NCBI GenBank assembly: GCA_017449025.1
Contig: JAFSKJ010000087.1
Location: forward strand, 1-54,110
Length of the DNA: 54,110 nt
DNA from: Prevotella sp.
Lineage (GTDB): Bacteria; Bacteroidota; Bacteroidia; Bacteroidales; Bacteroidaceae
Direction: 5' to 3'
Part shown: positions 123-53,970 of the stretch, in pieces
How positions within the stretch are numbered: position 1 is the stretch's first letter
Layout of the letters: every line of letters begins with the position of its first letter
Translations under genes and position numbers: made by a program
The notes under the pieces: model-generated
Databases searched by the model: none
Seen by the model: only the letters and a program-made list of their open reading frames with translations
Told to the model about the DNA's origin: nothing

Positions 123-380
123 GGTGCTTCGCACCGCCCGGTTATTGAGAGGTGACCGCGTTGCGGTCATACTGCTGTTCAACCGCACAGGTCGTAATTT
201 TTCATAAAAATGGCGTGAACATCGAGGCCTCTTCCGTAGAGTGGCACTCTACGGAGCTAAAGTGGCACTTTTTTGAAATTAAGTGCCACTTTACGGCCGT
301 AAAGTGCCACTTTACGGATGAGGCATGTTTCACGCCTTTTTATGAAGGAATCTACGTGTCAGAGGTGTCAGTGATTTTTG
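123..380 (+). repeat. GTGCCAC palindromic element, copy A
   Basis: The element has an outer segment (123-190) and a 148-base core (233-380). Both recur in reverse complement at 53905-53970 and 53702-53849. Around the core, 201-222 and 325-346 are imperfect inverted repeats (TTCATAAAAATGGCGTGAAC against a GTTTCACGCCTTTTTATGAA-like arm). Inside lie four words of the AGTGGCACT/AGTGCCACT type (about 239-313) in opposing orientations, so the whole unit could fold into a long branched hairpin. The core ends with CGTGTCAGAGGTGTCAGTGA. The short ORFs across it look like chance frames. Confidence 0.8.
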
Positions 381-405
381 CTTATTTCTTAGGCGTGCTC
401 GAAGG

Positions 406-441
406 AGTAGGTTCGGTAGGTTTGGTAGGTTCGGTTGGTTT
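406..441 (+). repeat. 9-bp tandem repeat, about four units
   Basis: Units AGTAGGTTC, GGTAGGTTT, GGTAGGTTC and GGTTGGTTT follow without gaps. They lie between repeat copy A and the susC promoter, about 125 bases upstream of its -7 box. Short tandem repeats of this kind can vary in copy number by slippage. No function can be read from the sequence. Confidence 0.7.
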
Positions 442-564
442 ATTATGGCAGGATATTGGGGCTGCATGGCGAGGGCGGCTTACGCAGTGGTATGATGCAA
501 TCGTTTGCGCGTATATAATATAAGTATTTATAACAAAAAGAGAACAACGAAAGCAAAAGAAAGC

Positions 565-572
565 TAACTTTG
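565..572 (+). promoter_or_regulatory. Probable susC promoter -7 box
   Basis: TAACTTTG matches the Bacteroidetes -7 consensus TAnnTTTG exactly and lies 48 bases upstream of the susC start. The AT-rich stretch before it has no clear TTTG -33 box. Confidence 0.6.
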
Positions 573-619
573 CACATTGAAAGACTATCAAAACTATAAA
601 TTAACTCTAATTCAATGTA

Positions 620-3600
620 ATGATGAAGCAGGTAAACAAGAAAATCCCGTTCAGAATGCTGGCCCTTATTGTGGGCTTGCTGCTGACGGCGAGTGCCTTT
701 GCACAGCAGATAACTGTGAAGGGACACGTGAAAGATGCCACTGGTGAGCCCGTCATCGGAGCAACAGTAAAGGTGGCCGGCACACAGACCGGCACCGTGA
801 GCGACTTCGACGGCAACTTCACCATCAAGGCAAATGCGGGCGCAACGCTCAACGTTACTTATGTAGGCTATCAGTCGGCCTCGGTGAAAGCAGCGCCGAG
901 CGTTGAAGTCACACTTCAAGACGACGCCAAGGTGCTGGAAAATGTGGTGGTCATAGGCTATGGCCGCGCCAAGAAGAGCGACTTGACCGGCTCTGTGACG
1001 GCCATCAAGCCCGACGAGATGAACCACGGCCTGATTACCAGTGCGCAGGATGCCCTTCAGGGCAAGGTGGCCGGTGTCAACATCACCAACTCCGGTGGTG
1101 CTCCGGGTGCCAGTGCAACCATCCGCATCCGCGGCGGCTCGTCGCTTAATGCCTCCAACGACCCTCTGATTGTGATCGACGGTCTGGCCATGGACAACTA
1201 CGGCATGCAGGGAGCCTCGAACCCCCTGTCGTTGGTCAACCCGAACGACATCGAGTCGTTCACCGTGTTGAAGGATGCCTCGGCCACGGCCATTTACGGT
1301 AGCCGCGCCTCCAACGGTGTGATTATCATCACCACCAAGAAGGGGCAGAAGAACCAGAAGGCCCACTTCAGCTACAACGGCAACGTGTCGGTGAGCACCG
1401 TCAGGAACAAGATGGACGTGATGGATGCCTCCGAGTACATGGGCTACGTAAAGAACCTGGTGATGAAAACCCGCGGCTATAGCGAGGAGCAGTACTTTGC
1501 CAGCCAGGAGTATGCCAACCTGGGCTATCTCGACGCAAGCGGCAAGCAGCAGTTTGCCGACACCGACTGGCAGGACCAGATTTACCAGTCGGCCTTCTCC
1601 GTCGACCACAACCTGACCGTGAGCGGCGGCCTGAAGAACATGCCCTACCGCGTGAGCTTAGGCTACACCGGCCAGGAGGGTATTATCAAGACCAGCGACT
1701 ACCAGCGCTATACGGCGAGCATCAACCTTTCGCCGACGCTTCTCAACGACCACCTTACCTTTAATATCAATGGTAAGGGAATGTACTCGAAGACCACCTA
1801 CGCCAACCAGGGCGACGCCATCAGCGGTGCACTCTTCATGGACCCCACGAAGCCCGTCTACGACCCGCGCGCCAGCTACAACAGCGGCTACCGCCAGTAC
1901 TGGCAGTGGCCCGGCAGCGCCGACTGGAACGACACGTTCTGGACCACCAACTACAACTCATTGGCTCCGAAGAACCCCGTGGCCGCCCTCTACAACTACT
2001 CTAACAAGGGTAAGTCGAAGGCCTTTGTGGGCAACATCGAGGCCGACTACAAGATCCACGGCTTTGAGGACCTGCACATACACATGAACGCCGGCATGGA
2101 CTACACCACCGGCAAGAGCAACGTAAGGCACTCGCCCTACAGCTACAACGGCAACTACTATTTCGGCAACAACGGATGGAGCAAGCAGGACACGTACAAC
2201 CTGTCGTTCAACATCTACGGGCAGTACATGAAGGACCTGGCCGACACCCACCACTTCGACGTGATGGCCGGTTATGAGTGGCAGCACTTCCACAAGAAGA
2301 GCGACTACTACTATGCCGGACTCTACCCGCAGACCTCACTCCGCGTAGACGACAACGGCAAGAAGCTGGCTGGCACGGAATACCTGCCATCGGAGAACAC
2401 GCTCTACAAGTCAGAGAACTATCTGGTATCGTTCTTCGGCCGCTTCAACTACTCGCTTCTCGACCGCTACATGCTCACCGCCACGGTACGTGCCGACGGT
2501 TCGTCGCGCTTCAACTGGCTCGACACCGGCGACAACCAGCAGTGGGGCATCTTCCCGTCGGTAGCCTTGGCATGGAAGATCAACGAGGAGCCGTTCCTGA
2601 AGAACGCCACATGGCTCTCCGACCTGAAGCTGCGCGCCGGATGGGGTATTACCGGTCAGCAAGAGGGCATTGGCGACTATACCTATATCCCCACCTACAC
2701 ACCTAACTCACAGGGTGCCTACTACTATCTGTTCGGCGACGGACGCACCTATCGCCCCGACGCTTACAACAACGCCCTGACGTGGGAAAAGACCACCACT
2801 TGGAATGCCGGCCTGGACTTCGGCATCATCAACAACCGCCTGACGTTCAACCTCGACTTCTACCACCGCAAGACCAAGGACCTTATCAACACGGTGGTGA
2901 TTCCCGTGGGCACCAACTTCTCCAACAAGGTTACTCAGAACATCGGCTCGCTCCACAACACGGGTGTTGAGTTCGCTGCCAACTGGCGCGCCATACAGAC
3001 CAACGACTGGAACTGGCAGTTGGGCTATAACGTAACCTGGAACAAGAACGAGATTGACGAGCTTGTGGCCAGCACCGGCGAGGACTACAAGATTGTTCAC
3101 GGCGGACTCGCCATCGGCGACTCCGGCAGCGACGGCATCAAGTCGTGGCACGTGGGCAAGCCCGTGGAGGCCTACTACACCTACCAGCAAGTCTACAACG
3201 CCGACGGACAGCCAGTCTACGGACAGTTTGTAGACCGCAACGCCGACGGCATTATCAACGACCTGGACCGCTACTACTACAAGAAGTCTACGCCCGACGT
3301 GACCATGGGCTTCACCTCGAAGCTCACCTACAAGAGCTGGGACCTCGGCTTCTCAATGCGCGCCAGCCTGAACAACTACGTCTACAACGCCATAGAGGCC
3401 GGCAATTCCAACCTCGGACTGAGCAGCGTATACTCCGGCTCTGCCTGGCACAACATCCTGAACATGGCTGTAGACAAAGGCTGGACAGCATCTGAGTCTC
3501 GCGACGCACTGAGCGACTACTACATCCAGAACGCATCGTTCCTGAAGATGGACAACATCACTCTGGGCTACTCGTTCAAGACCTTCGACGACTACCTCTC

Positions 3601-15697: not shown

Positions 15698-17175
15698 GAA
15701 GGTGGCGGTCGCTGCTCTACGCACCGCTGCTGAAGCTTGCCGTCTGCCTCTCGGGAGGCATTGTGGTGGGGCGGCAGACGGAGGCCGGAGGCATGCTCTG
15801 GCTGTCGCTACTTGCCGTGGCCATCGTCGTGGGACTGCTCTTCTGGCGCAAGCCGCGACTGCAGTCGGCGGTGATAGCATTGTGCTGCATGCTGCTCGGC
15901 GTGGTGCTCTCAGCAAGGCAGAGGCAGGCCGTTGTCGTAGACTGGCCCGCGGAGGCTCTCACCGTAGAGACCGTGGTCACCGCCGAGCCTGTGGCCAAGC
16001 CCAAGACCGTGGTCCTCGACCTGCTGCTTACGGGCAGCGGACGCCGCGTGAAGGCCTACTTGCAGGCCGACAGTCTGAGCCGCGCCGTCAAGGTTGGCGA
16101 CGGACTGGTGCTCACTGCCGCCTTCAGCCGAGGCAGCGACTGGAGCAGCGGCAACTTCAGCTACCGCGACTACTTGGAAACCCACGGCTTCTCAGGCACG
16201 GCCTTCGTACGCAGCGGGCAGTGGCACCGGCAGCAGCTCTCACTCGCCGCCATACCGCTATTGGAGCGCACACGTCTGCGCTTCATGGTGTGGCGCCATC
16301 AGCTTACCATCCGTCTGCGCCATGCCGGCCTCAGCAACGAGCAGTTTGCAGTGGTGGCTGCAATGGTGCTCGGCGACAAGTCGGCGCTCACCCGCGAGCT
16401 GAAAGACACCTACAGCATCAGCGGTGCCTCTCATGTGCTGGCACTCAGCGGCCTGCATCTCGGCATCATCTATGGTTTGCTGTCGCTATTCTTCTCACGC
16501 CGCCGGCGCCGAGTCATACCCGTGACACTGTCGGTGCTGGCACTCTGGGCTTTCGTGCTCTTGGTGGGCATGCCGCCGAGTGTCGTCAGGGCTGCCGTCA
16601 TGCTCAGCATCTACATGCTCTTCTCCCTGGCCGGGCGCAACCGCACACCCGTCAACGTGCTTGCCTTCACGGCCATCGTAATGCTCTGCTACAGCCCTTG
16701 GGCACTGTTCGACGTGGGCTTCCAGCTGTCGTTTGCGGCCATGCTCGCCATACTGGTGCTGACGCCGCTATTCAACAGTCTGCTGGCCGTTGGCATGCTC
16801 ACGCGCCACCGGTGGCTGCGCACGCTGTGGTCGCTGCTCAGCGTGTCGGCAGCGGCGCAGGTTGGGTCGGCACCGCTTGTGGCCTACTACTTCGGCCGCT
16901 TCTCCACCTATTTCCTGCTTACCAATGTGCTTGTCATTCCCGTCGCCACCTTAGTTGTCTATCTATCTCTTCTCACGCTGGCCGTGCCTGCCTGTGGCGT
17001 CATGCTTACAGGCATGGTGCAGTGGCTCAACGCCGCTCTCACCCGCATTGCCGCCCTTCCATACGCCAGCATCGAAGGCCTTCACCCAACAGCCCTGCAG
17101 ACAGTGTCCGCATACGTGGTCATTGTCGCCGTACTGGCTGCAATGGCAAAGTGGAGAGGAAATGAAATTATTTAG
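15694..17175 (+). CDS. comEC: ComEC/Rec2-family membrane channel protein
   Basis: This 493-residue polytopic membrane protein probably forms the inner-membrane channel through which single-stranded DNA enters during competence. The start ATG at 15694 overlaps the vanZ-like stop, giving strong translational coupling. The order is two or three N-terminal helices, a DUF4131-type OB-like region (about 55-190), and the Competence domain with GDKSALTRELKDTYSISGASHVLALSGLHLG and PPSVVRAAVMLSIYMLF. The C-terminal metallo-beta-lactamase domain of full-length Gram-positive ComEC is absent, as is common in Bacteroidetes. A long open frame also exists in another phase here, but it is an artefact of the GC-rich codons. 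Confidence 0.92.
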   Translation: MRRWRSLLYAPLLKLAVCLSGGIVVGRQTEAGGMLWLSLLAVAIVVGLLFWRKPRLQSAVIALCCMLLGVVLSARQRQAVVVDWPAEALTVETVVTAEPVAKPKTVVLDLLLTGSGRRVKAYLQADSLSRAVKVGDGLVLTAAFSRGSDWSSGNFSYRDYLETHGFSGTAFVRSGQWHRQQLSLAAIPLLERTRLRFMVWRHQLTIRLRHAGLSNEQFAVVAAMVLGDKSALTRELKDTYSISGASHVLALSGLHLGIIYGLLSLFFSRRRRRVIPVTLSVLALWAFVLLVGMPPSVVRAAVMLSIYMLFSLAGRNRTPVNVLAFTAIVMLCYSPWALFDVGFQLSFAAMLAILVLTPLFNSLLAVGMLTRHRWLRTLWSLLSVSAAAQVGSAPLVAYYFGRFSTYFLLTNVLVIPVATLVVYLSLLTLAVPACGVMLTGMVQWLNAALTRIAALPYASIEGLHPTALQTVSAYVVIVAVLAAMAKWRGNEII

Positions 17176-17189
17176 CGCGCACGTACAAG

Positions 17190-17370
17190 ATGGCACTTTC
17201 TTACTGACACCTCTGACACGTATATTTTTCACAAAAACGGCGTGAAACATTGGGGGGCATCCGTAGAGTGGCACTTTACGACCGTAAAGTGGCACTTTTT
17301 TGTCGTAAAGTGGCACTTTAGCTCCGTAAAGTGCCACTCTACGGTTGAGCCTCTATGTTTCACGGTTGAA
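17190..17370 (-). repeat. GTGCCAC palindromic element, copy B
   Basis: The order is CTGACACCTCTGACACG (17204-17220), GGCGTGAAACAT, then CCGTAGAGTGGCACTTTACG (17261-17280), which is a perfect 20-base inverted repeat of 17325-17344. Two further GTGGCAC words lie inside, and ATGTTTCAC (about 17354-17362) pairs with GTGAAACAT on the other side. The orientation is that of copy E, opposite to copy A. It lies just after comEC. Confidence 0.8.
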
Positions 17371-17596
17371 AAGTGTAAAACAATTCGGAGAATCATTGAC
17401 ATTTGGCTCAAGAAAAAGGGAAGAACAGGTGTGTTTTCGGTTGGGTTTTTTGAGTTAATAACACCCCATGCAACCCCTTTTGCTGATATATGGGAAGACG
17501 ATGCCGTAGGCATCGGATAGGGGTAGCCAGCCATGCAGCCGTGACGTGGTCGCAATGCGGGAAAGGCTACTAAAGGGCAAGAAGTCGTATTGATTG

Positions 17597-17630
17597 TGTC
17601 ATATTGTCACCCGTTACTGTCAATATGACA
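17597..17630. promoter_or_regulatory. 10-bp inverted repeat upstream of hsp20
   Basis: TGTCATATTG (17597-17606) and CAATATGACA (17621-17630) are perfect reverse complements separated by 14 bases. The site is centred about 45 bases upstream of the -12 element of the sigma-54-like promoter. It is a candidate activator or repressor site. It does not resemble the CIRCE operator. Confidence 0.6.
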
Positions 17631-17643
17631 TAATATTGTACGC

Positions 17644-17658
17644 TGGCATGCTTGTTGC
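17644..17658 (+). promoter_or_regulatory. Sigma-54-type -24/-12 promoter of hsp20
   Basis: TGGCATGCTTGTTGC matches the RpoN consensus TGGCAyr-N4-TTGCw, with invariant GG at 17645-17646 and GC at 17657-17658 at the correct 12-base spacing. No TAnnTTTG box is visible between here and the gene. The 5' untranslated leader would be about 105 bases. Confidence 0.7.
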
Positions 17659-17776
17659 CTAAAGGGTAGGTGAGCAGCGCAACCACCAGCTGAGAATGAG
17701 AGCTGGCAAGCAAAGCTCGGAGAACAACAAAACAACATGTATAACAAATAAAAACAAACATTAGGAGGACAAAACT

Positions 17777-18202
17777 ATGATGCCGACAATGAGAACAAAC
17801 AACTGGATTCCCGCTGTGTTCAACGATCTTTTCAACAGCGATTTCATGCCGCGGGCTAATGCCACCGCACCGGCAATCAACGTAAAGGAGTCGGACAAGG
17901 CCTACACTGTGGAGCTGGCCGCTCCAGGAATGAAAAAGGAGGACTTCAACGTACACATCAACGACGAGGGCAACCTCATTATCAAGATGGAGCAGAAGCA
18001 GGAGAAGAAGGAGGAGGACAAGAACGCCCGCTACCTGCGCCGTGAGTTCAGCTACTCTAAGTTCGAGCAGACTCTGATACTGCCCGACGATGTGGAGAAG
18101 GATAAGATTGCCGCCCGCGTAGAGCACGGCGTGCTCACCGTGGAGCTGCCGAAGGTGGTTGAAGAGAAAGTGAAGGTGTCAAGACAGATTGAAATCTGCT
18201 AA
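17777..18202 (+). CDS. Small heat-shock protein, Hsp20/alpha-crystallin family
   Basis: This is a cytoplasmic holdase chaperone of 141 residues, the usual size. The N-terminal arm (1-32) includes WIPAVFNDLFNSDF. The alpha-crystallin domain spans about 35-125 with PAINVKESDKAYTVELAAPGMKKEDF, and the conserved G-V-L motif is in EHGVLTVELPK, followed by a short tail. A true Shine-Dalgarno AGGAGG at 17763-17768, rare among genes of this window, stands nine bases before the ATG and suggests strong translation. The gene is monocistronic, with a sigma-54-like promoter, an inverted repeat upstream and a strong terminator downstream. Confidence 0.94.
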   Translation: MMPTMRTNNWIPAVFNDLFNSDFMPRANATAPAINVKESDKAYTVELAAPGMKKEDFNVHINDEGNLIIKMEQKQEKKEEDKNARYLRREFSYSKFEQTLILPDDVEKDKIAARVEHGVLTVELPKVVEEKVKVSRQIEIC

Positions 18203-18241
18203 GGCAGTACAAGAGATGTCTCACACAGAGCTGATAAGCAA

Positions 18242-18269
18242 GAGGGTGTGCCAGTTTTGGCACACCCTC
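18242..18269. terminator. Bidirectional terminator between hsp20 and trpB2
   Basis: GAGGGTGTGCCA (18242-18253) pairs perfectly with TGGCACACCCTC (18258-18269) around a GTTT loop, a 12-base stem between convergent genes. Confidence 0.85.
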
Positions 18270-18298
18270 CTGCTTTATGTGTAGTTCTTACGGTTTTT

Positions 18299-19660
18299 CT
18301 ACTGCTTGTCGAGTTCAGCAAGGTTCTCGGCAATCATCTCGTCGGTAACGGTATAGTTCTGCAGGTCGCCCTTGATGTAGGCTTCGTACGACGGCATGTC
18401 GATGAGTCCGTGGCCGGAGAGGTTGAACAGTATGACTTTCTCCTCGCCCGTCTCCTTGCACTTCAGGGCCTCGCGGATGGTGGCAGCTATGGCGTGTGTG
18501 CTCTCAGGGGCGGGTATGATGCCCTCGGTGCGCGCGAAGAGCATGCCGGCTTCGAAGGTCTCCAACTGCGGGATGTCTACACCGTGCATATAGCCGTCCT
18601 TGATGAGCTGGGAGATAATCATGCCTGCACCGTGGTAGCGCAGGCCGCCAGCGTGGATGTTGCTCGGCTTGAAGTTGTGGCCCAGCGTGTACATGGGCAG
18701 CAGCGGTGTGTAGCCGGCCTCGTCGCCGAAGTCGTAGCGGAACTGACCGCGAGTGAGTTTCGGGCAGCTGTCAGGCTCAGCGGCGATGAACTCCGTGTGG
18801 CGCTCACCACTCAGGTTGTGGCGCATGAAGGGGAAGGCTATGCCGCCGAAGTTGGAGCCTCCGCCGAAGCAGGCTATCACCATGTCGGGATATTCGCCAG
18901 CCATGGCCATTTGCTTCTCGGCCTCAAGGCCGATGATGGTCTGGTGAAGTCCTACGTGGTTGAGCACGGAGCCAAGGGTGTATTTACAGTTGGGGGTGGT
19001 GGTTGCCAGCTCTACAGCCTCGGAGATGGCGGTGCCTAATGACCCTGAGTGGGTGGGGTCCTTGGTCAGGATGTCCTTACCGGCACGGGTAGACATTGAG
19101 GGAGAGCCCTCGACAACGGCGCCAAAGGTGCGCATGATGCTGGAGCGGTAGGGCTTCTGCTGCATGGTAATCTTCACCTGGTAGACGGCACAGTCGAGGC
19201 CGTAGATCTTGGCGGCATACGACAGGGCTGCGCCCCACTGTCCGGCGCCGGTCTCCGTGGTGACATTGGTTGTGCCTTCCTGCTTGGCATAGTAGCACTG
19301 AGGCAGTGCGGAATTGATCTTATGAGAACCTAAGGGATTGGTGCTCTCGTTCTTGAAATAGATGTGGGCAGGTGTACCGAGAGCCTCTTCGAGGGCATAG
19401 GCGCGCACCAGCGGAGTGCTGCGATAGTATTTGTACTTGTCGAGCACATCCTCGGGTATGTCTATCCAGCGATGCTCAGTGTCAAGCTCCTGCACACAGC
19501 ACTCGCGCGGGAAGATGTGTGCCAGGTCGTCGACGCCGAGGGGTTGCTTCGTTGCCGGATGGATTGGCGGCATGGGCTTGTTAGGCATGTCGGCCTGAAT
19601 GTTATACCACTGTGTAGGAATCTCATTCTCCTGAAGGATAAATTTTTTCTGTCTATTCAT
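18299..19660 (-). CDS. Tryptophan synthase beta-like protein (TrpB2 type)
   Basis: This is a PLP enzyme of 453 residues that makes tryptophan from indole and serine. It is of the TrpB2 branch, which is longer than classical TrpB and starts with an extended region (about 1-75, with IPTQWYNIQADMP). The PLP lysine is Lys114 in NPLGSHKINSA, and the phosphate-binding loop is CFGGGSNFGGIAF. No trpA lies nearby, which fits reports that TrpB2 acts apart from TrpA, for instance as indole salvage. The gene follows the outer-membrane barrel gene by 22 bases and may be read with it. Confidence 0.92.
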   Translation of the reverse strand: MNRQKKFILQENEIPTQWYNIQADMPNKPMPPIHPATKQPLGVDDLAHIFPRECCVQELDTEHRWIDIPEDVLDKYKYYRSTPLVRAYALEEALGTPAHIYFKNESTNPLGSHKINSALPQCYYAKQEGTTNVTTETGAGQWGAALSYAAKIYGLDCAVYQVKITMQQKPYRSSIMRTFGAVVEGSPSMSTRAGKDILTKDPTHSGSLGTAISEAVELATTTPNCKYTLGSVLNHVGLHQTIIGLEAEKQMAMAGEYPDMVIACFGGGSNFGGIAFPFMRHNLSGERHTEFIAAEPDSCPKLTRGQFRYDFGDEAGYTPLLPMYTLGHNFKPSNIHAGGLRYHGAGMIISQLIKDGYMHGVDIPQLETFEAGMLFARTEGIIPAPESTHAIAATIREALKCKETGEEKVILFNLSGHGLIDMPSYEAYIKGDLQNYTVTDEMIAENLAELDKQ

Positions 19661-19682
19661 AATAATTTTTGTGTTAAGTGTA

Positions 19683-20327
19683 TTAGAAGTCTAAGCCTAT
19701 GCCAAGGAACAGGGAGAGATGGTAGGCATCCCTAACCCAGGCTCCCGTGTCGTCGTTGTTTACGTCCTGTCCTACGAGGCCAAGATTGACACCTAAGTTG
19801 ACATGCAGATGGCCAAAGGAGCATCCGAAACCTTCGCGCAGGCCGAAGTCCATAGCCTTGGCATCGAAGCCGTAGGAGCCGAAGAAGCCTGTAAACGGCT
19901 GTAAGGTAATGTTGTCGGAAGCATAAAAGCGATAGGTAGCCACGAGGGGAACCATGAGCGAATGGTTGTTAACCTTATATTTCTCATAACTACGCGTAGA
20001 GGATTCGTGGCTTGAGGAGCTATAGCCGTTGTAGTACTTGCCCGACCAACGGTTTTCAAACTTCGACCCCATGTTTTGGTAGTATGCTCCCGTCTCAAGG
20101 TAGAGAGGTATTCTGGCAACCCTGAAGCCCAGAGCCACTCCGCCAAGGGGAGTGGCGAGAGCTATGGGATCCTCTAAATTATAATAGGTGGTAACTCCTG
20201 CGCCTGCGCGAAGACCTGCGTAGAATCGTGGTGCATCTTTCTTGGCAGCATCGAAGCGTGCACTTGCAGACACAGTTGCCAAGAGCATGATTGCTGTCAC
20301 GGACAGCCTGAATAGTCTCTTCTTCAT
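19683..20327 (-). CDS. Outer membrane beta-barrel protein, function unknown
   Basis: This 214-residue protein from the ATG at 20327 has a signal peptide ending around ATVSASA. The mature part alternates polar and hydrophobic residues, for example RFYAGLRAGAGVTTYYN, ALGFRVARIPLYLETGAYYQNMGS and HVNLGVNLGLVG, and ends in the aromatic LGIGLDF typical of outer-membrane barrels. It belongs to the broad porin-family or PorT-like group of 8-strand barrels. No transport substrate can be proposed. Confidence 0.75.
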   Translation of the reverse strand: MKKRLFRLSVTAIMLLATVSASARFDAAKKDAPRFYAGLRAGAGVTTYYNLEDPIALATPLGGVALGFRVARIPLYLETGAYYQNMGSKFENRWSGKYYNGYSSSSHESSTRSYEKYKVNNHSLMVPLVATYRFYASDNITLQPFTGFFGSYGFDAKAMDFGLREGFGCSFGHLHVNLGVNLGLVGQDVNNDDTGAWVRDAYHLSLFLGIGLDF

Positions 20328-20353
20328 GATTGTTGATTTTATTATTGATTCTG

Positions 20354-20361
20354 CAAAGTTA
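20354..20361 (-). promoter_or_regulatory. -7 box of the barrel gene
   Basis: CAAAGTTA is TAACTTTG on the minus strand, 27 bases before the start at 20327. Confidence 0.6.
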
Positions 20362-20425
20362 AGCCTTTTTTCCGATACGGCCAAGATTTATGGCGGAAAA
20401 TTATCGCCGTTTGCGTTTTTTTCCC

Positions 20426-20433
20426 TACCTTTG
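20426..20433 (+). promoter_or_regulatory. -7 box of the uracil-DNA-glycosylase-like gene
   Basis: TACCTTTG matches the Bacteroidetes consensus and stands 52 bases before the ATG at 20485. Confidence 0.55.
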
Positions 20434-20484
20434 CTGAACAAATGCGAGAAAGGCAACAGACAATGACTGAAGAATAACGTAGCT

Positions 20485-21141
20485 ATGACATCTTATCTGA
20501 ACACCGAGAATATAGCCCGCAGCAGGGACGGCGTTGAGTTCCACCCGCTCCGCCCATTCCTGCCCAGTAATGCACGTGTGCTGTTCTTAGGCAGCTTTCC
20601 GCCGCAGCGCAAGCGCTGGTGCATGGACTTCTACTACCCTAACTTCATCAACGACCACTGGCGCATCGAGGGAGAGGTGTTCTTCGGCAACAGGAACCAG
20701 TTTGTGGACGTGGAAGCCAAAAGCTTCAAGGCGGATGAGATTGTGACATTCTGCCGTGACACTGGGCTTGCCTTCTTCGACACCTCCACCGCCATACGCC
20801 GGTTGCAGGACAATGCCTCAGACAAGTTCTTGGAGGTGGTGGAGCCGACAGACATCCACGCCCTTCTGCTGCAACTGCCCCACTGCCGTGCCATTGTCAC
20901 CACTGGCGAGAAGGCCACGGAAACCATCTGCTGCTCGCTCCACATTCCTGTCATGCCAAAGGTAAACACCTGCGTTGACATACCTGAGGTCTTCAATAGC
21001 GAAGGAAAGCCCATAATGCTCTATCGCCTGCCCTCGTCGTCAAGGGCCTATCCCCTGGCTTTCGGGAAGAAGGTGGAGGCATATAGGAAGATGTTCGACA
21101 CCGTTCTCGGAGAGGTGCATTGCTGCGTGGCTCAGCCATGA
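20485..21141 (+). CDS. Uracil-DNA glycosylase-fold protein
   Basis: This is a 218-residue protein of the UDG superfamily, nearest to the Mug-like or unclassified group. The first motif is VLFLGSFPPQ (about residues 32-41), which corresponds to the water-activating loop of UDGs, and the second is LPSSSRAYP (about 183-191), the DNA-intercalation loop position. A central Rossmann-like segment, CRAIVTTGEKATE, also fits. Base-excision repair of mismatched uracil or a related lesion is the expected activity, but several clades of this fold lack it. It is a single-gene unit facing the speA operon. Confidence 0.8.
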   Translation: MTSYLNTENIARSRDGVEFHPLRPFLPSNARVLFLGSFPPQRKRWCMDFYYPNFINDHWRIEGEVFFGNRNQFVDVEAKSFKADEIVTFCRDTGLAFFDTSTAIRRLQDNASDKFLEVVEPTDIHALLLQLPHCRAIVTTGEKATETICCSLHIPVMPKVNTCVDIPEVFNSEGKPIMLYRLPSSSRAYPLAFGKKVEAYRKMFDTVLGEVHCCVAQP

Positions 21142-21201
21142 GCCTTTGTGCATTTTGTAAACGAGGCAGGGGCTGCTTGCCACCTCTTTGCAGCTCTTCT
21201 C

Positions 21202-23094: not shown

Positions 23095-23618
23095 AGCTCT
23101 AATAGTTGGCGGAGTTTTTCTATTGTTATCTTTATCTTGTCGAAGTTGTCCATCAGCGACACGTCGAGGGTATAGGTGGCCTTGGAGTAGAAAGGCTCAC
23201 GCCACTCTAACTGCTCTTGAATGAAGGCCAGCAGCTCGTCGGGGCTTTTGCCCTTGAGCAGCGGCCGGTCGCCCTTGCCCATCAGCAGATGCTTCCGCAG
23301 CACCTCCGGCTCACAGCGCAGCCACACCACTTGTGCCTGCTGGTTCAGGTATTCCATGTTGTCGAAGAAGCACGGCGTACCTCCACCGCAACTGATGACC
23401 ACGTTTTCGAACTCGGCCACCTCGTGCAGCATGTTGCGCTCTATCTGCCGGAAGCCATCTTCTCCACGCTCGGCGAAGATCTGGCTCACCTTCTTGCGCA
23501 TGCGGCTCTCGATGTACCAGTCGAGGTCGTAGAACGGCAACCCCAGCTCCTTGCCCAATGCCCGGCCCACAGTGGTCTTGCCCGACCCCATGTAGCCTAT
23601 CAGGACTATTCTCTTCAT
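23091..23618 (-). CDS. aroK: Shikimate kinase
   Basis: This enzyme phosphorylates shikimate at the 3-hydroxyl with ATP, in the pathway to chorismate. The 175-residue protein has a Walker A motif GYMGSGKTTVGR (about 8-19), a shikimate-binding DLDWYIESR, ERGEDGFRQIE, and the GGG of VISCGGGTPCF; the LID arginine lies in GKGDRPLLKG. The start overlaps the last base of the topA stop, and the stop overlaps speA, so all three genes are read as one unit although they belong to unrelated pathways. Confidence 0.95.
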   Translation of the reverse strand: MKRIVLIGYMGSGKTTVGRALGKELGLPFYDLDWYIESRMRKKVSQIFAERGEDGFRQIERNMLHEVAEFENVVISCGGGTPCFFDNMEYLNQQAQVVWLRCEPEVLRKHLLMGKGDRPLLKGKSPDELLAFIQEQLEWREPFYSKATYTLDVSLMDNFDKIKITIEKLRQLLEL

Positions 23619-29731: not shown

Positions 29732-29739
29732 TACCTTTG
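29732..29739 (+). promoter_or_regulatory. -7 box of the hybrid regulator gene
   Basis: TACCTTTG lies 22 bases before the ATG at 29761, giving a very short leader. Confidence 0.6.
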
Positions 29740-29760
29740 TGCGCGAAACCTTAACCATCG

Positions 29761-32848: not shown

Positions 32849-32858
32849 AAAACAAAAG

Positions 32859-32890
32859 AGAGCGTCATCAGCCGCGGCATCAGACGCTCT
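32859..32890 (-). terminator. Terminator behind tRNA-Cys
   Basis: AGAGCGTC (32859-32866) pairs with GACGCTCT (32883-32890). The loop itself contains the palindrome GCCGCGGC. Read on the minus strand, TTTTGTTTT follows, and the symporter ATG comes within 11-17 bases of the stem. Confidence 0.75.
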
Positions 32891-32894
32891 ATCG

Positions 32895-32966
32895 AGGTGC
32901 CTAGCAGATTCGAACTGCTGTAGACGGTTTTGCAGACCGTTGACTAAGCCACTCATCCAAGGCACC
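32895..32966 (-). tRNA. tRNA-Cys (GCA)
   Basis: On the minus strand the cloverleaf is complete: acceptor GGTGCCT/AGGCACC with discriminator T, anticodon stem ACGGT/ACCGT with loop CTGCAAA (anticodon GCA), and T-loop GTTCGAATC. The CCA end is not encoded. A TAACTTTG box (32986-32993, minus) stands 20 bases upstream. Confidence 0.95.
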
Positions 32967-32985
32967 TTCTTGATGAATGCGGCTG

Positions 32986-32993
32986 CAAAGTTA
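32986..32993 (-). promoter_or_regulatory. -7 box of tRNA-Cys
   Basis: CAAAGTTA reads as TAACTTTG on the minus strand, just upstream of the tRNA. Confidence 0.6.
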
Positions 32994-33060
32994 CGAATAA
33001 ATAAGCAAACAACCAAGAAAAACCATCACTTTTTTCACAATTTGCATCAATTAACGTCCG

Positions 33061-33145
33061 GCGAGTGGCACTTTACGCCCGTAAAGTGCCACTTATTGGT
33101 CGGCAAGTGCCACTTAATGATCGGCAAGTGCCACTTATTGGTTGC
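33061..33145. repeat. GTGCCAC element, copy C: hairpin plus 21-bp tandem repeat
   Basis: AGTGGCACTTTACG (33064-33077) is a perfect inverted repeat of 33080-33093. From 33085 three units of 21 bases follow, of the form AGTGCCACTTATTGGTCGGC plus A (33085-33105, 33106-33126, partial 33127-33145). The stop codon of the FeoB-associated gene (33135-33137) lies inside the third unit. The outer parts seen in copies A, B and E are missing. Confidence 0.75.
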
Positions 33146-33299
33146 TCTTGTTGCCTTCGCAGTCAGAGCATTTGTCGCGGAGCGGGCAGCCCGTACACCC
33201 GCAACAGTAGTTGTCGTGACGGTGCAGCAAGCGGAAGACTCGCCATCCGGCATAGAGCACGGCAGCGGCCACAACTACTATAACAACCAGTGTCTGCAT
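33135..33299 (-). CDS. FeoB-associated Cys-rich membrane protein
   Basis: This small protein is 54 residues from the ATG at 33299 (MQTLVVIVVVAAAVLYAGWR). It has a single membrane helix, then a cysteine cluster YCCGCTGCPLRDKCSDC that could bind iron. Relatives are usually encoded next to the ferrous-iron transporter FeoB, but no feo gene is in this window. The last codons and stop run into repeat copy C, so the tail EGNKSNQ may have been rewritten by the repeat. It follows the lipid kinase gene by 28 bases on the same strand. Confidence 0.75.
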   Translation of the reverse strand: MQTLVVIVVVAAAVLYAGWRVFRLLHRHDNYCCGCTGCPLRDKCSDCEGNKSNQ

Positions 33300-33327
33300 A
33301 GTGATTCCTGTCGCAGCCTTCGACATG

Positions 33328-34368
33328 CTAAAGCTTGGAAAGCTTGCGAAGCATCAGCTTGTTGAGGGCATGTATGCGACGGCCTCCTTTCTCTATGTCC
33401 TCGCGTACATTATTTATATTATTAAAGAAATCGCTGAAGGCATTCAGCAGGAAGTTGGGCTGGGAGTTGTCTTCCAACACGTCGGGATTGGTAACGATGC
33501 GCAGGCCAAGATGCTCTATCGACACATCTATGTCGGTGCCGGTCATAACAGGGTCGCCGTCGTAGTGGATGGCTCCGGGCGAAAAGCGGTGTATGTGGAG
33601 CCTCTTTGTACGGAAGGTCTTGATCTTCGAGTTGCTGGTGATGGTCTTCATAAACAGGTCTGCTGCTATCTTGGGGGCGTCTAAGGCTGTAAACGGTTCC
33701 ATCACCACAACGTCCATCTCGCCGTCCTTCATTGTTGCGCCAGGAGCTATATAGGCGTTGTTGCCATATTGTGAGGCATTGGCACAGGCTATCAGGAACG
33801 CATTGTAGTTATGCGCACCCGAATCGTCGCTTACCTCGTAAACCTCCGGTTTGTATTTCAGCCCTTCCTTCAGCACATTCTCAACGTAAGTCACAGGGCC
33901 GCGCTTGCCTGCCTCGGCAAATTTCAACGAGATGAAAGCATCAAAGCCCAGGCCGCAGGTGCAGAAGAAGGGCAAGCCGTTGATAACGCCAAAGTCGAAA
34001 GCCTCAACATGGGCCTGGTCAATAACAGCCAGCGACTTGGCAATGTCCAAAGGCAGGCACAAGTGTCGCGCCAGCCCATTCCCAGAGCCACAGGGCACTA
34101 TGGCTAAGGCCGTAGACGTGTGTATCAGCGAGCGGGCCACCTCGTTCACCGTACCGTCGCCGCCCACGGCAGCCACGATGTCCGTTTCGTTCTTCACCTC
34201 GTCGGCTGCCAGCATCGAGGCATGTCCGGCATATTCGGTATACAGAATCTTGCAATCGAAATGGTCGGAGTCAAGTGTCTGCTCAACAAGCTTGGGCAGT
34301 TCGTCCTTACTCCGCGTACCCGAAATGGGGTTAACAATAAACGTTACCGATTTCCTTTTTTCACTCAT
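33328..34368 (-). CDS. Diacylglycerol-kinase-family lipid kinase
   Basis: This is a 346-residue cytoplasmic enzyme that would phosphorylate a membrane lipid or long-chain base with ATP. The catalytic domain begins VTFIVNPISGTRSKDEL and contains the nucleotide-binding GGDGTVNE (69-76) and the VPCGSGNGLARHLCLP loop. The C-terminal beta domain ends in PDVLEDNSQPNFL. The DAGK family includes bacterial DgkB, YegS and sphingosine kinases. The divergent neighbour is serine palmitoyltransferase, so a sphingoid-base or ceramide substrate is a reasonable guess but not shown by sequence. A TATCTTTG box (34376-34383, minus) precedes it. Confidence 0.88.
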   Translation of the reverse strand: MSEKRKSVTFIVNPISGTRSKDELPKLVEQTLDSDHFDCKILYTEYAGHASMLAADEVKNETDIVAAVGGDGTVNEVARSLIHTSTALAIVPCGSGNGLARHLCLPLDIAKSLAVIDQAHVEAFDFGVINGLPFFCTCGLGFDAFISLKFAEAGKRGPVTYVENVLKEGLKYKPEVYEVSDDSGAHNYNAFLIACANASQYGNNAYIAPGATMKDGEMDVVVMEPFTALDAPKIAADLFMKTITSNSKIKTFRTKRLHIHRFSPGAIHYDGDPVMTGTDIDVSIEHLGLRIVTNPDVLEDNSQPNFLLNAFSDFFNNINNVREDIEKGGRRIHALNKLMLRKLSKL

Positions 34369-34375
34369 TTTGGTG

Positions 34376-34383
34376 CAAAGATA
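34376..34383 (-). promoter_or_regulatory. -7 box of the lipid kinase gene
   Basis: CAAAGATA is TATCTTTG on the minus strand, eight bases before the ATG at 34368, so the transcript would have almost no leader. Confidence 0.5.
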
Positions 34384-34478
34384 CTAAAAAAAGCCATTCT
34401 TTCAACCGTTTGACAAAGTTTTTTTGCTCAAAAAACGTATTTATTACGAAAAAAATGCACTTTTTCATAAATAATGTG

Positions 34479-34486
34479 TAACTTTG
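34479..34486 (+). promoter_or_regulatory. -7 box of serine palmitoyltransferase
   Basis: TAACTTTG lies 45 bases before the ATG at 34531, behind an AT-rich stretch shared with the divergent lipid-kinase gene. Confidence 0.6.
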
Positions 34487-34530
34487 CAGCCTGTTAGAAA
34501 AAAAATAGTAGAAACTACACCTATATCGGA

Positions 34531-35718
34531 ATGGGACAGTTACAAGAAAGATACAAGCACTACCGAGAGCCGCAGAAGTTTATGGAGGCTGACGTATACC
34601 CCTATTTCCGCGCCATTGAGGGGAAACAGGGTACGGAAGTAGAGATGGGCGGACACAAAGTGCTGATGTTCGGCTCGAATGCCTATACGGGTCTTACTGG
34701 CGACCAGCGCATCATTGACGCCGCCAAGGCTGCACTCGACAAGTACGGATCTGGCTGCGCAGGAAGCCGCTTCCTCAACGGAACGCTCGACCTGCACATT
34801 CAGCTTGAAAAAGAGATTGCAGAGTTTATTGGAAAGGATGACTGCCTCTGCTTCTCCACGGGATTCTCTGTAAACCAAGGCGTGATCCCAGCCTTGCTCA
34901 GCAAAGACGACTACGTGATATGCGACGACCGCGACCACGCATCAATCGTCGACGGGCGCCGGCTGGCCTTTGCCAAGCAGTTGCACTACAAGCACAACGA
35001 CATGGACGACCTGGAGCGCGTGCTGCAGAAGCTGCCTTTGGAAGCCATCAAGCTGATAGTTGTCGACGGAGTGTTCTCAATGGAGGGCGACCTTGCCAAG
35101 CTGCCGGAGATTGTCAAGCTGAAGCACAAGTACAACTGCTCGATAATGGTGGACGAGGCTCACGGCATAGGCGTCTTTGGAAAGCAGGGGCGCGGAGTGT
35201 GCGACCACTTCGGACTTACCGATGAGATAGACCTAATCATGGGTACATTCTCAAAGTCGCTGGCATCCATAGGCGGATTCATAGCCTCAGACAGCGACAC
35301 CATCAACTGGCTGCGCCATACCTGCCGCACTTACATCTTTTCTGCCTCAAACACTCCCGCTGCCACCGCAGCAGCCATGACAGCCCTGCACATCATACAG
35401 CAGGAGCCCGAGCGGATACAGGCACTGTGGGACGTCACCAACTATGCATTGAAGCGTTTCCGCGAGGAGGGCTTCGAGATTGGCGACACAGAAAGCCCCA
35501 TCATCCCACTCTACGTCCGCGACGTGGAAAAGACATTCCTCGTGACGGCCCTCGCCTTTAAGGCCGGAGTATTCATCAACCCCGTCATCCCTCCTGCTTG
35601 CGCACCTCAGGACACACTGGTTCGCTATGCGCTTATGGCAACACATACCGAGGAGCAGGTGGAGCGCTCAGTCATTGCCCTAAAGAAAATATTCGTGGAA
35701 CAGGGAATAATCAAGTAA
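34531..35718 (+). CDS. spt: Serine palmitoyltransferase, sphingolipid synthesis
   Basis: This is a PLP enzyme of the alpha-oxoamine synthase family that condenses serine with a fatty acyl-CoA to 3-ketosphinganine, the first step of sphingolipid synthesis. The 395 residues show NAYTGLTGD near the substrate site, DDRDHASIVDG, DEAHGIG (Asp208 and His211 on the cofactor), GTFSKSLAS with PLP lysine Lys242, and PPACAPQDTLVRYALMATHT. The family also holds KBL and BioF, but the N-terminus (YKHYREPQKFMEADVYPYFR) is that of the Bacteroidetes SPT. A terminator follows. Confidence 0.9.
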   Translation: MGQLQERYKHYREPQKFMEADVYPYFRAIEGKQGTEVEMGGHKVLMFGSNAYTGLTGDQRIIDAAKAALDKYGSGCAGSRFLNGTLDLHIQLEKEIAEFIGKDDCLCFSTGFSVNQGVIPALLSKDDYVICDDRDHASIVDGRRLAFAKQLHYKHNDMDDLERVLQKLPLEAIKLIVVDGVFSMEGDLAKLPEIVKLKHKYNCSIMVDEAHGIGVFGKQGRGVCDHFGLTDEIDLIMGTFSKSLASIGGFIASDSDTINWLRHTCRTYIFSASNTPAATAAAMTALHIIQQEPERIQALWDVTNYALKRFREEGFEIGDTESPIIPLYVRDVEKTFLVTALAFKAGVFINPVIPPACAPQDTLVRYALMATHTEEQVERSVIALKKIFVEQGIIK

Positions 35719-35747
35719 GTAGCGAGTCCCTTAATGTATATCAGCAA

Positions 35748-35773
35748 AAAACCGCCTGTCTTCAGGCGGTTTT
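35748..35773 (+). terminator. Terminator after serine palmitoyltransferase
   Basis: AAAACCGCCTG-type arm ACCGCCTG (35751-35758) pairs with CAGGCGGT (35763-35770) around TCTT, with A/T extensions on both sides and TTTT after it. It can also stop tRNA-Pro transcription from the other side. Confidence 0.85.
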
Positions 35774-35783
35774 GCGTTTTGTG

Positions 35784-35856
35784 TCGAGGTGACAGGACTC
35801 GAACCTGCGACAGCCTGGTCCCAAACCAGGAACGCTACCAACTGCGCTACACCTCG
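35784..35856 (-). tRNA. tRNA-Pro (TGG)
   Basis: On the minus strand: acceptor CGAGGTG/CACCTCG with discriminator A, D-arm GCGC...GCGT, anticodon stem CCTGG/CCAGG with loop TTTGGGA (anticodon TGG), and T-arm GCAGGTTCGAGTCCTGT. CCA is not encoded. A TACCTTTG box lies at 35875-35882 (minus). Confidence 0.95.
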
Positions 35857-35975
35857 TTGCTATGAAAGCGGGTGCAAAGGTACAAAAAAAAGTGAAGAGT
35901 GGAAAGTGAAGAATAAAGAATTTACTGCCACACAACATATTTTAACAGTACAGCCCGCTTCTGTAACTACTTCAT

Positions 35976-36067
35976 CCGTAGAGTGGCCTCGATGTTTCAC
36001 GCCATTTTTATGATAAAAATTACGTGTCAGAGGTAACCGTGGTTTTTGCTTATCTCGTACGCGCGAG
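35976..36067 (+). repeat. GTGCCAC element, copy D (array deleted)
   Basis: CCGTAGAGTGGC (35976-35987) jumps directly to CTCGATGTTTCACGCC, then TTTTTATGATAAAAATTACG and GTGTCAGAGGTAACCGTG, followed by CTTATCTCGTACGCGCGAG. Compared with copy A, the internal array of GTGGCAC words is missing, while the right-hand part is kept. The orientation is that of copy A. Confidence 0.7.
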
Positions 36068-36084
36068 CATAAGGGGGGTGCAGC

Positions 36085-36159
36085 CCCTGCGGGAAAACCG
36101 CAGGGCACGGGACGTGTCATCTCGTGCGCGCGATAGGTGGGAATGCCCCAAAGGGGCAT
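36085..36159. repeat. REP-like short palindromes
   Basis: CCCTGCGG (36085-36092) pairs with CCGCAGGG (36098-36105), and ATGCCCC (36143-36149) with GGGGCAT (36153-36159) around AAA. Between them lies a CTCGTGCGCGCG stretch. The rest of the gap to 36313 holds no gene that I can support. Confidence 0.5.
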
Positions 36160-36313
36160 CCTATAGATGCTGAATACCACAACAATTGATCAAGTTTCCA
36201 CCCCAAGGAATGGAAGAGGGGTAGAAAATGAGCCCTAAATACCTGAGTACCAATCAATAACTTGTAGAACCAGTTTTCCACCCTGTTTCCTTGTGAACGT
36301 CTCAAAATGGAAG

Positions 36314-41198: not shown

Positions 41199-41582
41199 AT
41201 GGACGGATACACACAGAAGACTTTTCCTGTCAAGACGAAGAGATATGTGCAGACGCTGGACTTACGCGATGACCCCGAAATGATTGCGGAGTACCGGAAG
41301 TGGCACTCAAAAGAATTCCAATGGAAGGAGATACGCGACGGGATCAAGGCCGTGGGCATCCTTGAGATGGAAATCTACATTCTTGGCACGCGCCTTGTGA
41401 TGATAGTCGACGCCCCGGAATCATTCGACTGGCAGACGGCAATGGACCGTCTTGCCACACTACCGCGACAGGCTGAGTGGGAGGCATTTGTGGCTAAGCT
41501 GCAAGGCTGTCGCGAGGATGCCCGCAGCGACGAGAAATGGCAGATGATGGAAAGAATGTTTTACTTATACGATGAGGCATGA
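41199..41582 (+). CDS. L-rhamnose mutarotase family protein
   Basis: This 127-residue cytoplasmic protein has the RhaM-type alpha/beta barrel: RYVQTLDLRDDPEMIAEYRKWHS, then GILEMEIYILGTRLVMIVDA and PRQAEWEAFVAKLQ, ending KWQMMERMFYLYDEA. The tyrosine and histidine of the N-terminal motif correspond to the sugar-binding site. Family members interconvert anomers of L-rhamnose or L-fucose. It directly follows GH97, so it may act on a sugar liberated from the same glycan, though GH97 itself would release galactose. Confidence 0.85.
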   Translation: MDGYTQKTFPVKTKRYVQTLDLRDDPEMIAEYRKWHSKEFQWKEIRDGIKAVGILEMEIYILGTRLVMIVDAPESFDWQTAMDRLATLPRQAEWEAFVAKLQGCREDARSDEKWQMMERMFYLYDEA

Positions 41583-47877: not shown

Positions 47878-47883
47878 ATGTAT

Positions 47884-52840: not shown

Positions 52841-52905
52841 GTGATTATTTCCGACACCCACTTTTCTCCTTGTCTCATTTGTCTTTCTTTAAGTAGCTCT
52901 TTTCA

Positions 52906-52933
52906 TGTTACCGCTCAACTCAAATCGGTAACA
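52906..52933. promoter_or_regulatory. Inverted repeat upstream of the xylanase operon
   Basis: TGTTACCG (52906-52913) and CGGTAACA (52926-52933) are perfect reverse complements with a 12-base spacer. The centre lies about 80 bases upstream of the -7 box, a usual distance for an AraC/HTCS-type activator site. Confidence 0.55.
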
Positions 52934-52967
52934 GATCAACGACAACTATGACAACTTGGACAACAGC

Positions 52968-53310
52968 CTACGGCTTCACTATCAGCTTCACCGTCCTCTG
53001 TCCTACCTTTACGATGGCTTTGTCACCGTCGCACAGCGTTGTGCTAACCGTAGCTGTGCCGCCGCTGCCAACGGCATGGCCAACCTGTCGGCCGGCGAGG
53101 TCGTAGACGGCAACCATGGTGTCGTCATCGATGCCGCTCAATATGCAGTTGATAATCATGCCAACGTCGGTCACCGACACACTCTTGTCTCCATTCATGT
53201 CGGCGGCCTCAAAGATGAACACCGAGGGCACCTGCTCCAAGATGTAGTTGATGGCACAGCCCACGTCGGTCACTGAGACCGCCCGTCGCTGTTCACGTCG
53301 CCAGGCGTGC
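52968..53310 (-). pseudogene. Frameshifted dockerin-like tail of a lost secreted enzyme
   Basis: The conceptual frame reads VPGTPGDVNSDG, loses one base near 53279-53286, then continues VSVTDVGCAINYILEQ and a second unit DMNGDKSVSVTDVGMIINCIL. These two units are dockerin-like calcium-binding repeats. The tail (VAVYDLAGRQVGHAVG ... VKLIVKP) is the shared secretion-type C-terminus. Only the end of the gene remains, and its upstream part has been replaced by an unrelated ORF, so it is a pseudogene fragment. Confidence 0.75.
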
Positions 53311-53538
53311 CTGGAACATTTTTGCTACTCGGGCATCTATCTGAAGCTTTCTCTTTTTGCCCACTGACGTTGTATAATCTTCAGCACTGCTTGTGCGGCG
53401 GCGTGGTATACTCACTTGTGTTTTCAGCAACTCTATAACCTGTTGCTGGAGCCACAAATTAAAAGAGACTCCTGTAGGCAATTTAATTGTGGCCTGTGAC
53501 ACAAGTTGTTCATCAATGGTGATACTATAAGTACACAT
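53293..53538 (-). CDS. Antitoxin-like or unknown small protein
   Basis: This 81-residue ORF (MCTYSITIDEQLVSQATIKLP) has a front part like ribbon-helix-helix antitoxins: a beta strand followed by two helices (VSFNLWLQQQVIELLKTQV). The end (DARVAKMFQARLAT) runs into the dockerin-like remnant in another frame, so the original C-terminus may be lost. No toxin gene is visible next to it. The assignment is weak. Confidence 0.4.
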   Translation of the reverse strand: MCTYSITIDEQLVSQATIKLPTGVSFNLWLQQQVIELLKTQVSIPRRRTSSAEDYTTSVGKKRKLQIDARVAKMFQARLAT

Positions 53539-53701
53539 AGACTACTCGTATTTGTTTTATCAGGTGCAAATTTACGAAAAGTTTAGGAATAAGCAAAGAA
53601 ATCGGCAGAAAAAAAATTGCACGTTACAGAAACTACGAAAAGTTTGGGCAACCCTTGCCATTAGGTGCTGAGCTACATACTCACGCGCGTACAAAAAAAA
53701 T

Positions 53702-53970
53702 AAAAATCACTGACACCTCTGACACATAAAATTTCTCATAAAAAAAGGCGTGAAACATGCCTCATACGTTGAGTGGCACTTTACGACTGTAAAGTGGCAC
53801 TTAATTTCAAAAAAGTGCCACTTTAGCTCCGTAGAGTGCCACTCTACGGATTAAGCCCCGATTACATAACGAAAAAGTATAAATAATAATCAGAAAAATA
53901 CGTGCTGTGCGGTTGAACTGCAGTATGACCGCAAGCGGTCACCTCTCAATGTCGGGCGGTGCAAAGCACC
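53702..53970 (-). repeat. GTGCCAC palindromic element, copy E
   Basis: This is the reverse-orientation twin of copy A. The core 53702-53849 is the same length (148 bases) and nearly identical to 233-380, including the four GTGGCAC/GTGCCAC words and TGACACCTCTGACAC. The outer part 53905-53970 matches 123-190. The spacer between core and outer part differs (AT-rich here). Confidence 0.8.

Follow-up and report, generated by a model that had tools for sequence, protein, structure and literature searches.

Do the short palindromic words scattered between the genes of a Prevotella contig belong to one element, and what might recognize it? The contig (JAFSKJ010000087.1, Prevotella sp. assembly GCA_017449025.1) is 54,110 nucleotides long, and we refer to this whole stretch as the window. 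An original prediction had proposed five intergenic sites with GTGCCAC words, common flanks and a longer shared segment, forming a structured mobile or regulatory element without coding capacity. We count 17 copies of the word AGTGSCACT (AGTGGCACT/AGTGCCACT) in the window where 0.72 are expected, a number that no shuffle among 100 attained, and 16 of the 17 copies make up four arrays of palindromic boxes at exactly 21-bp spacing (sites 1, 2, 3 and 5). The remaining copy (41299) is isolated within a called gene (41199–41582). Generic AAGn5CTT arrays with a minimum of three units are confined, among pitches of 14–33 bp, to pitch 21 in the window.

Palindromic boxes at a fixed pitch in the window's genome

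The 21-bp pitch and the four-unit build were not part of the original prediction, nor were the lack of arms at site 3 and a second module at sites 1 and 5. The five-site family itself is real at four sites, as arrays, whereas site 4 (about 35976–36067) is an array-less remnant that reads CATCCGTAGAGTGG-CCTCGATGTTTCACGCC without an intact AGTGSCACT. Likewise, the flank word GGCGTGAAACAT/ATGTTTCACGCC, predicted to be shared throughout, is present at sites 1, 2, 4 and 5 but absent from site 3, and the segment TGTCAGAGGTGTCAG, credited to four sites, is exact at three (1, 2 and 5), site 4 having only the shorter TGTCAGAGGT.

Genome-wide, AAAGTGSCACTTTACGG with up to two mismatches matched 164 times in forward and 168 times in reverse orientation in the 3.5-Mb genome to which the window belongs (G000), and its reversed control gave no match. 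The loci retrieved with patterns for box, flank and centre held 95 distinct sites, comprising 87 arrays and 8 single boxes, which bears out the predicted dispersed, non-coding and structured intergenic family. Four units are the rule (68 arrays), with two units in 2 arrays, three in 12, five in 4 and six in 1. All 251 distances between neighbouring units were 21 bp when chaining allowed 20–22 bp. With no limit on pitch, exact boxes not more than 130 bp apart were separated by 21 (199), 42 (139), 63 (65) and 84 bp (3), together with 13, 98 and 119 bp, one apiece; the boxes 13 bp apart (locus L154) reflect a visible larger deletion. On contigs C8, C17, C24, C25, C44, C49, C82 and C100, arrays stand no more than about 300 bases from a contig end. 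Assembly may therefore break at the repeat, and the copy count given here may be too low.

The boxes are conserved beyond their surroundings. Four-unit arrays agree with the consensus 84-mer (CCGTAGAGTGGCACTTTACGG AGCTAAAGTGGCACTTTTTTG AAATTAAGTGCCACTTTACGG TCGTAAAGTGCCACTCTACGG) at 0.994 in box columns, centre base excluded, versus 0.833 in spacer columns, and the box is nearly invariant across 344 oriented units, in which position −10 is C in 166, A in 123, T in 48 and G in 7. Individual copies are mostly distinct (49 of 52 centre-typed copies; median pairwise identity 0.905). Units most commonly run > > < < (37 arrays), then > > > < (14).

Many of these arrays sit between GTGAAACAT-(YGAG)GCCTCAT and ATGAGGC-ATGTTTCAC, which lead, on one side or on both, into CTGACACCTCTGACACGTAAAATTTTTCATAAAAATGGC arms, and in many copies imperfect inverted arms (GTGAAACAT...GAGGCCTCAT) face each other, with varying extent and partner modules. 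Others adjoin GGGTGACAG-type repeats or, like site 3, are solitary. The flanks are mosaic: the stretch shared by BLAST is shorter than 20 bp in 74 of 170 tested flanks and reaches up to 398 bp in the remainder. Genes were called with a purpose-built hexamer model trained on 23 long open reading frames (ORFs) of the window. By these calls, 67 of the 68 arrays away from fragment edges lie between genes, in all gene orientations: among the 87 arrays, 27 are tandem, 24 divergent and 16 convergent, 1 lies inside a called ORF and 19 are too near a fragment edge, while array-free neighbouring gene pairs at the same loci are tandem in 61 cases, divergent in 5 and convergent in 12. With 95 sites and this placement, the repeat is short, non-coding and multicopy in the manner of a miniature inverted-repeat transposable element (MITE).

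Pitch and core words in relatives

Across 398 genomes of the genus, AGTGSCACT-N12-AGTGSCACT with up to one mismatch matched in 36. A pitch-free pattern, AAGTGSCACTT-N{1,29}-AAGTGSCACTT, which admits pitches of 12–40 bp, matched in 34, and its reversed control matched in none of the 398; the further copies that a genuine family would have are present both in the window's own genome and in its relatives. Among the matches listed, the pitch was 21 bp in 17 genomes, the window's included, and 22 bp in 14, and three single-pair genomes gave 17, 27 and 30 bp, one each. Each of the 15 genomes with at least two pairs among these matches was uniform in pitch. Two sampled near relatives (G371 and G305) had no box pair in either search.

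We placed pitch on a one-gene tree (IQ-TREE) of 24 array-bearing genomes, with array-free genomes excluded and genome G057 labelled 22. The window's genome and 12 other 21-bp genomes grouped together (support 99/99), with one further 21-bp genome (G209) outside the group. Two changes of the pitch label were needed, of which well-supported branches force one; none of 500 shuffles was as low. By this clustering, lineages pass on their pitch, and at least one change of pitch has occurred.

A complete 2.73-Mb genome of the genus (G391) carries the same architecture with other core words. We read 400 kb of it in 20-kb stretches (20 in all, 9 picked for listed matches), and AAAG-N5-CTTT with one mismatch gave 24 arrays of at least three units at pitch 22 and no arrays at pitches 18–21, 23–26 or 30. 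Four units were found in 20 of the 24 arrays, five in the other 4 and three in none. The core words were GTGSCAC (36), GTTSAAC (29), GGGGAAC or its complement (15), GGGCAAC (5), GTCCAAC (4) and rarer others, in a mix that differs between arrays; by eye, the array flanks are mutually alike and asymmetric. Half of the arrays (12 of 24) came from the 11 stretches not picked for matches, or about one per 18 kb.

Applied to 84,980 species genomes, the 21-bp pattern returned at least 76 stretches. Among those listed, most came from metagenome-assembled genomes (MAGs) of Prevotella or Prevotellaceae and 20 from a Bacteroides MAG; a Mediterranea and a Bacteroidaceae MAG also appeared, as did single matches from one Campylobacterales and one Spirochaetaceae MAG. 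Distances within these stretches were 21 bp in 38 of 38 cases in Bacteroides E22, 28 of 28 in RGIG8053 and 46 of 46 in others; the Campylobacterales (L238), Spirochaetaceae (L246) and L258 loci enter these pitch counts and are excluded from the orientation counts below. Triple boxes at 21 or 22 bp occurred in 4 of 393 genomes of the order, namely the window's, G290 (within the genus) and G583 and G493 (outside it). The latter three have cores other than the window's (CTATG in G290, GTYNRAC in G583 and CTGAG/TTGAG in G493), and G493 has a run of about eleven phased units. One apparent relative, G300 (Prevotella sp. RGIG1522, goat abomasum), is not independent, since its two array regions match the window's genome nearly perfectly (99.8% over 1699 bp and 100% over 3017 bp, the latter between L258 247–3263 and own-genome locus L008), pointing to the same species or contamination. 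Overall, the family is not confined to one species: the same type of box at 21 or 22 bp, its core words differing, recurs in a few other Bacteroidales as well as in other Prevotella. What is observed directly comprises the build of the arrays, their copy number, a pitch that is fixed in the window's genome and nearly fixed in its relatives, and the conservation of boxes over spacers.

Possible readings: protein-bound DNA, RNA or ancestry

Long-hairpin capacity and unit orientation vary by lineage, whereas box and two-turn pitch do not; as the features common to all lineages seen, these lead us to prefer a phased DNA site bound by protein. A hard physical regularity kept while the intervening bases vary is what would be expected of something that reads DNA geometry. 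At close to an even chance, then, we regard the family as dispersed, non-coding intergenic repeats in which phased palindromic boxes form a protein-bound DNA site within a MITE-like or repetitive extragenic palindrome (REP)-like carrier. The conserved heart would be AAG-N5-CTT boxes (here AAGTGSCACTT) two helical turns, or 21 or 22 bp, apart and most often four in number; we infer that a dimeric DNA-binding protein would occupy them on one helix face and assemble cooperatively, with curvature perhaps contributed by phased A/T tracts. In the window's species the array would lie within inverted-repeat arms and would have spread as a non-autonomous MITE-like element, of which armless arrays (site 3 and low-copy relatives) may be a plainer form. 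Candidate roles for such a complex include copying the element, organizing the chromosome and insulating gene ends. A wedge model predicts larger bends than in shuffles for the window's genome (50.5 versus 33.7 degrees), G391 (80.3 versus 41.0) and G583 (102.3 versus 36.6; 3 arrays), which is supportive but weak backing for phased DNA. Plasmid iterons and the end sites of Tn7 and Mu also set multiple protein sites on one helix face at intervals of about 22 bp; those sites are asymmetric and tied to a replicon or transposon, whereas the boxes here are palindromic and dispersed in the genome.

Several observations weigh against this reading. The pitch has exceptions: G391 has one exact box pair at 21 bp; G057, listed at pitch 21 in the pitch-free search, gives 22 bp for 8 of 9 distances at up to two mismatches; locus L086 (G056) has one 21-bp distance after two of 22; and CAMGFM is mixed (26 at 21 bp, 13 at 22 bp). 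Moreover, 16 of the 31 genomes at pitch 21 or 22 rest on one pair, and the species-genome loci are weaker evidence on pitch, not independent proof, because their seed pairs were chosen at 21 bp. Pitch also follows the tree, so a uniform pitch may be inheritance from tandem duplication. No cognate binding protein was identified, although no systematic search was made. On the carrier side, an all-against-all comparison of the 170 own-genome flanks gave mosaic modules without a common or clean element end, no clean target-site duplication was found, and among the matches listed for a 4-kb query around array 2, those in relatives start right of the array and never recover both flanks together, so no empty site emerged. 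No parent transposase sharing the element's ends turned up, again without a systematic search; the survey covered arm words with no array within 250 bp in loci L033–L082. The predicted mobility is plausible in the window's species, given the inverted arms, the many copies and the lack of a box pair in G371 and G305 in both genus searches, but lacks a clean target-site duplication, an empty site and a transposase. The RNA folding, junction pairing and gene-end placement described next count on the same side.

The serious rival, which we nonetheless consider rather unlikely, is an RNA role at gene ends, in which a transcribed long hairpin or row of hairpins would end transcription in both directions or protect mRNA 3′ ends. 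As RNA, the consensus 84-mer folds far better than shuffles, into one long hairpin-like stem of 34 pairs (−57.7 kcal/mol, z −13.2), as does a 42-nt unit pair (19-bp hairpin, z −9.0), but the site-3 array folds much more weakly (z −4.5). Pairing across the junctions of neighbouring units exceeds shuffles in own-genome and low-copy arrays (0 of 300 as high) and falls below them in E22, RGIG8053 and CAMGFM. Neighbouring units are opposite in 30 of 40 low-copy cases, orthologues kept in, yet run in the same direction in 35 of 38 cases in E22, 25 of 28 in RGIG8053 and 31 of 39 in CAMGFM. Within units, the variable arms show no covariation, their pairing not rising above shuffles in any of five array groups, and an RNA role offers no obvious reason for an exact pitch of 21 or 22 bases.

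Gene context is similarly divided. The 3′ ends of genes harbour many of the low-copy arrays, a placement that would suit an RNA role. After 57 arrays were collapsed, and with L091, L093 and L098 (from L083–L112) excluded, the 31 independent low-copy loci were tandem in 12 cases, convergent in 11, inside called genes in 5 and divergent in 3, a convergent excess (p = 0.004); the five in-gene loci and several loci with mismatches are probably chance matches. A stricter hand-picked set of 32 loci had 29 flanked by tandem or convergent genes and no divergent case. Its 20 loci at 21 bp, which lack the three divergent loci among the 31 (L092, L099 and L270), were convergent in 10 cases and tandem in 8, with 1 inside a gene and 1 at an edge; its 12 loci at 22 bp were tandem in 7 and convergent in 4, with 1 at an edge. 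The 22-bp loci lie close to stop codons (median 25 bp; 7 of 2000 uniform-placement simulations as close), whereas closeness was not beyond chance for the 21-bp loci (993 of 2000), nor clearly so for the own-genome, G391, E22, RGIG8053 and CAMGFM arrays. Against the RNA role, own-genome copies lie nearly as often between divergent as between tandem genes, and terminator-like sites in window positions 16900–36200 are at chance (17 versus 18.1 expected), one of them touching an array.

An explanation we hold to be improbable is a plain minisatellite inside a MITE, its units made by tandem slippage and its constant pitch reflecting ancestry alone. Near-identical neighbouring units in some arrays (RGIG8053 L237, own-genome L008 and L166) and the clustering of pitch on the tree agree with it, and a Bacteroidales precedent is published: as described in the accessible text, BrickBuilt is an intergenic Porphyromonas gingivalis MITE of 19 copies with small inverted ends and an internal minisatellite of 23-nt direct repeats in tandem, 1 to 22.8 copies with 0–6% indels (PMC4596501). 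The word stem 'palindrom' is absent from that text, and the repeat described here differs from the published description in its 21- or 22-bp unit, its palindromic boxes and its mostly exact count of four. Slippage sits poorly with so narrow a unit number in both the window's genome and G391, with the lack of any one-base pitch change in 251 own-genome spacers even though spacer columns vary, and with a pitch shared by arrays that have different cores and spacers.

Least probable, and very unlikely, is a REP, bacterial interspersed mosaic element (BIME) or REPIN-type repeat moved by a REP-associated tyrosine transposase (RAYT): the repeat is palindromic, intergenic, clustered, often with inverted neighbours and present in about 100 copies, but none of 13 Y1_Tnp matches in 7 of 9 genomes had a 21-bp pair in its fetched flanks, the array-rich, incomplete genomes G439 and G440 had no Y1_Tnp match at E 0.001, and no constant GTAG/CGTC end tetranucleotide occurs in the 344 own-genome units (position −5 is G in 144). 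REP/BIME sequences are characterized, in the accessible text, as GTAG- or CGTC-tagged short extragenic palindromes of high copy number, single or clustered and often dimers (PMC3733652), whereas the present repeat has no end tag, keeps a fixed two-turn pitch and shows no RAYT link in these searches.

We describe a real and abundant non-coding repeat family of MITE or REP kind. Rfam covariance models, run at gathering score on the window and on 8 array loci, matched only tRNAs. Plasmid and phage collections gave no match to a 176-base query at E 1e-5; in IMG/VR, 3 stretches have 21-bp pairs. A literature search, with subscription papers mostly outside its reach, found no description of the phased palindrome structure. 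The nearest account by description is PINSR, a non-coding intergenic Prevotella repeat with 177 and 184 copies in two strains, about three quarters of its sites common to both; according to the accessible text it has a 188-bp unit, is said to lack terminal inverted repeats and has no known function or transposase (PMC4755523). That text gives no phased palindromes; on a comparison made by description, the G391 repeat could conceivably be PINSR. Returning to the protein-bound site, it is possible, if on the unlikely side, that the arrays represent a new class of Bacteroidales chromosomal site, in which two-turn box tetrads with a lineage-set pitch and a small core alphabet would co-evolve with a dimeric binder and nucleate nucleoprotein complexes at roughly a hundred or more positions on each chromosome. 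Such a class may link lineage-specific Prevotella repeats described one by one, and the 84-bp array would be a direct bait for its reader.

Features of the window and neighbouring repeats

Two other identities were considered for the arrays. A coding role is disfavoured by the stop codon that the common unit has in one reading frame (TAA within CCGTAAAG) and by the location of the arrays between called genes. CRISPR repeats are separated by spacers of roughly 26–72 bp, and the gap of 10 or 11 bp between the 11-bp boxes does not fit a CRISPR array.

Table 1. Array, arm and remnant features in the window, with phased arrays in genomes carrying other cores
Feature	Position	Strand	Basis
Site 1 left arm: TGGCGTGAACATCGAGGCCTCTT	211..233	+	sequence
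Site 1 array: four 21-bp units, > > < <	234..317	+	pattern matches
Site 1 right arm: ATGAGGCATGTTTCACGCC ... TGTCAGAGGTGTCAG (357-371)	318..371	+	word matches
Site 2 left arm: CTGACACCTCTGACAC and GGCGTGAAACAT (17239-17250)	17203..17260	+	word matches
Site 2 array: four 21-bp units, > > > <	17261..17344	+	pattern matches
Site 2 right arm: ends ATGTTTCACGG	17345..17366	+	sequence
Site 3: four 21-bp units, armless, stand-alone	33058..33141	+	pattern matches and gene calls
Site 4 remnant: first part of unit 1, then right arm; no array	35976..36036	+	sequence
Site 4 arm words: ATGTTTCACGCC, then truncated TGTCAGAGGT	ATGTTTCACGCC at 35992-36003	+	word matches
Site 5 arm: TGTCAGAGGTGTCAG 53710-53724 (-), GGCGTGAAACAT 53747-53758 (+)	53710..53758		word matches
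Site 5 array: four 21-bp units	53766..53849	-	pattern matches
Phased 21/22-bp arrays: L316, L320, L323 (G583); L317 (G493); L314 (G290)			

The sites are all intergenic by our gene calls, as had been predicted, with the qualification that array 3 overlaps the stop codon, inside unit 4, of a 46-aa ORF (33135–33272, minus strand). This Cys-rich ORF resembles, by eye, a FeoB-associated protein. Sites 1 and 5 lie at the contig ends, with a called gene on one side only, and both continue into a second repeat module.

The second dispersed module (window 1–193 and about 53906–53980) is bounded by inverted sequences of the CGACCTGTGCGGTTGA/TCAACCGCACAGGTCG kind and has several hairpins in its interior. 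It also occurs at two other loci (L042, about 1527–1765; L050, about 1528–1765), where it is nested in an array-element arm with an AT-rich duplication (AAAATT); such a duplication was seen solely around the nested module. At the far end of the window, about 54069–54110, are repeated GGGTGACAG-type words (CTGTCACCCTCCTGTCACCCTCTGTCACCCTC), which recur in L005, L012, L015 and L023 and flank one subset of arrays in the window's genome.

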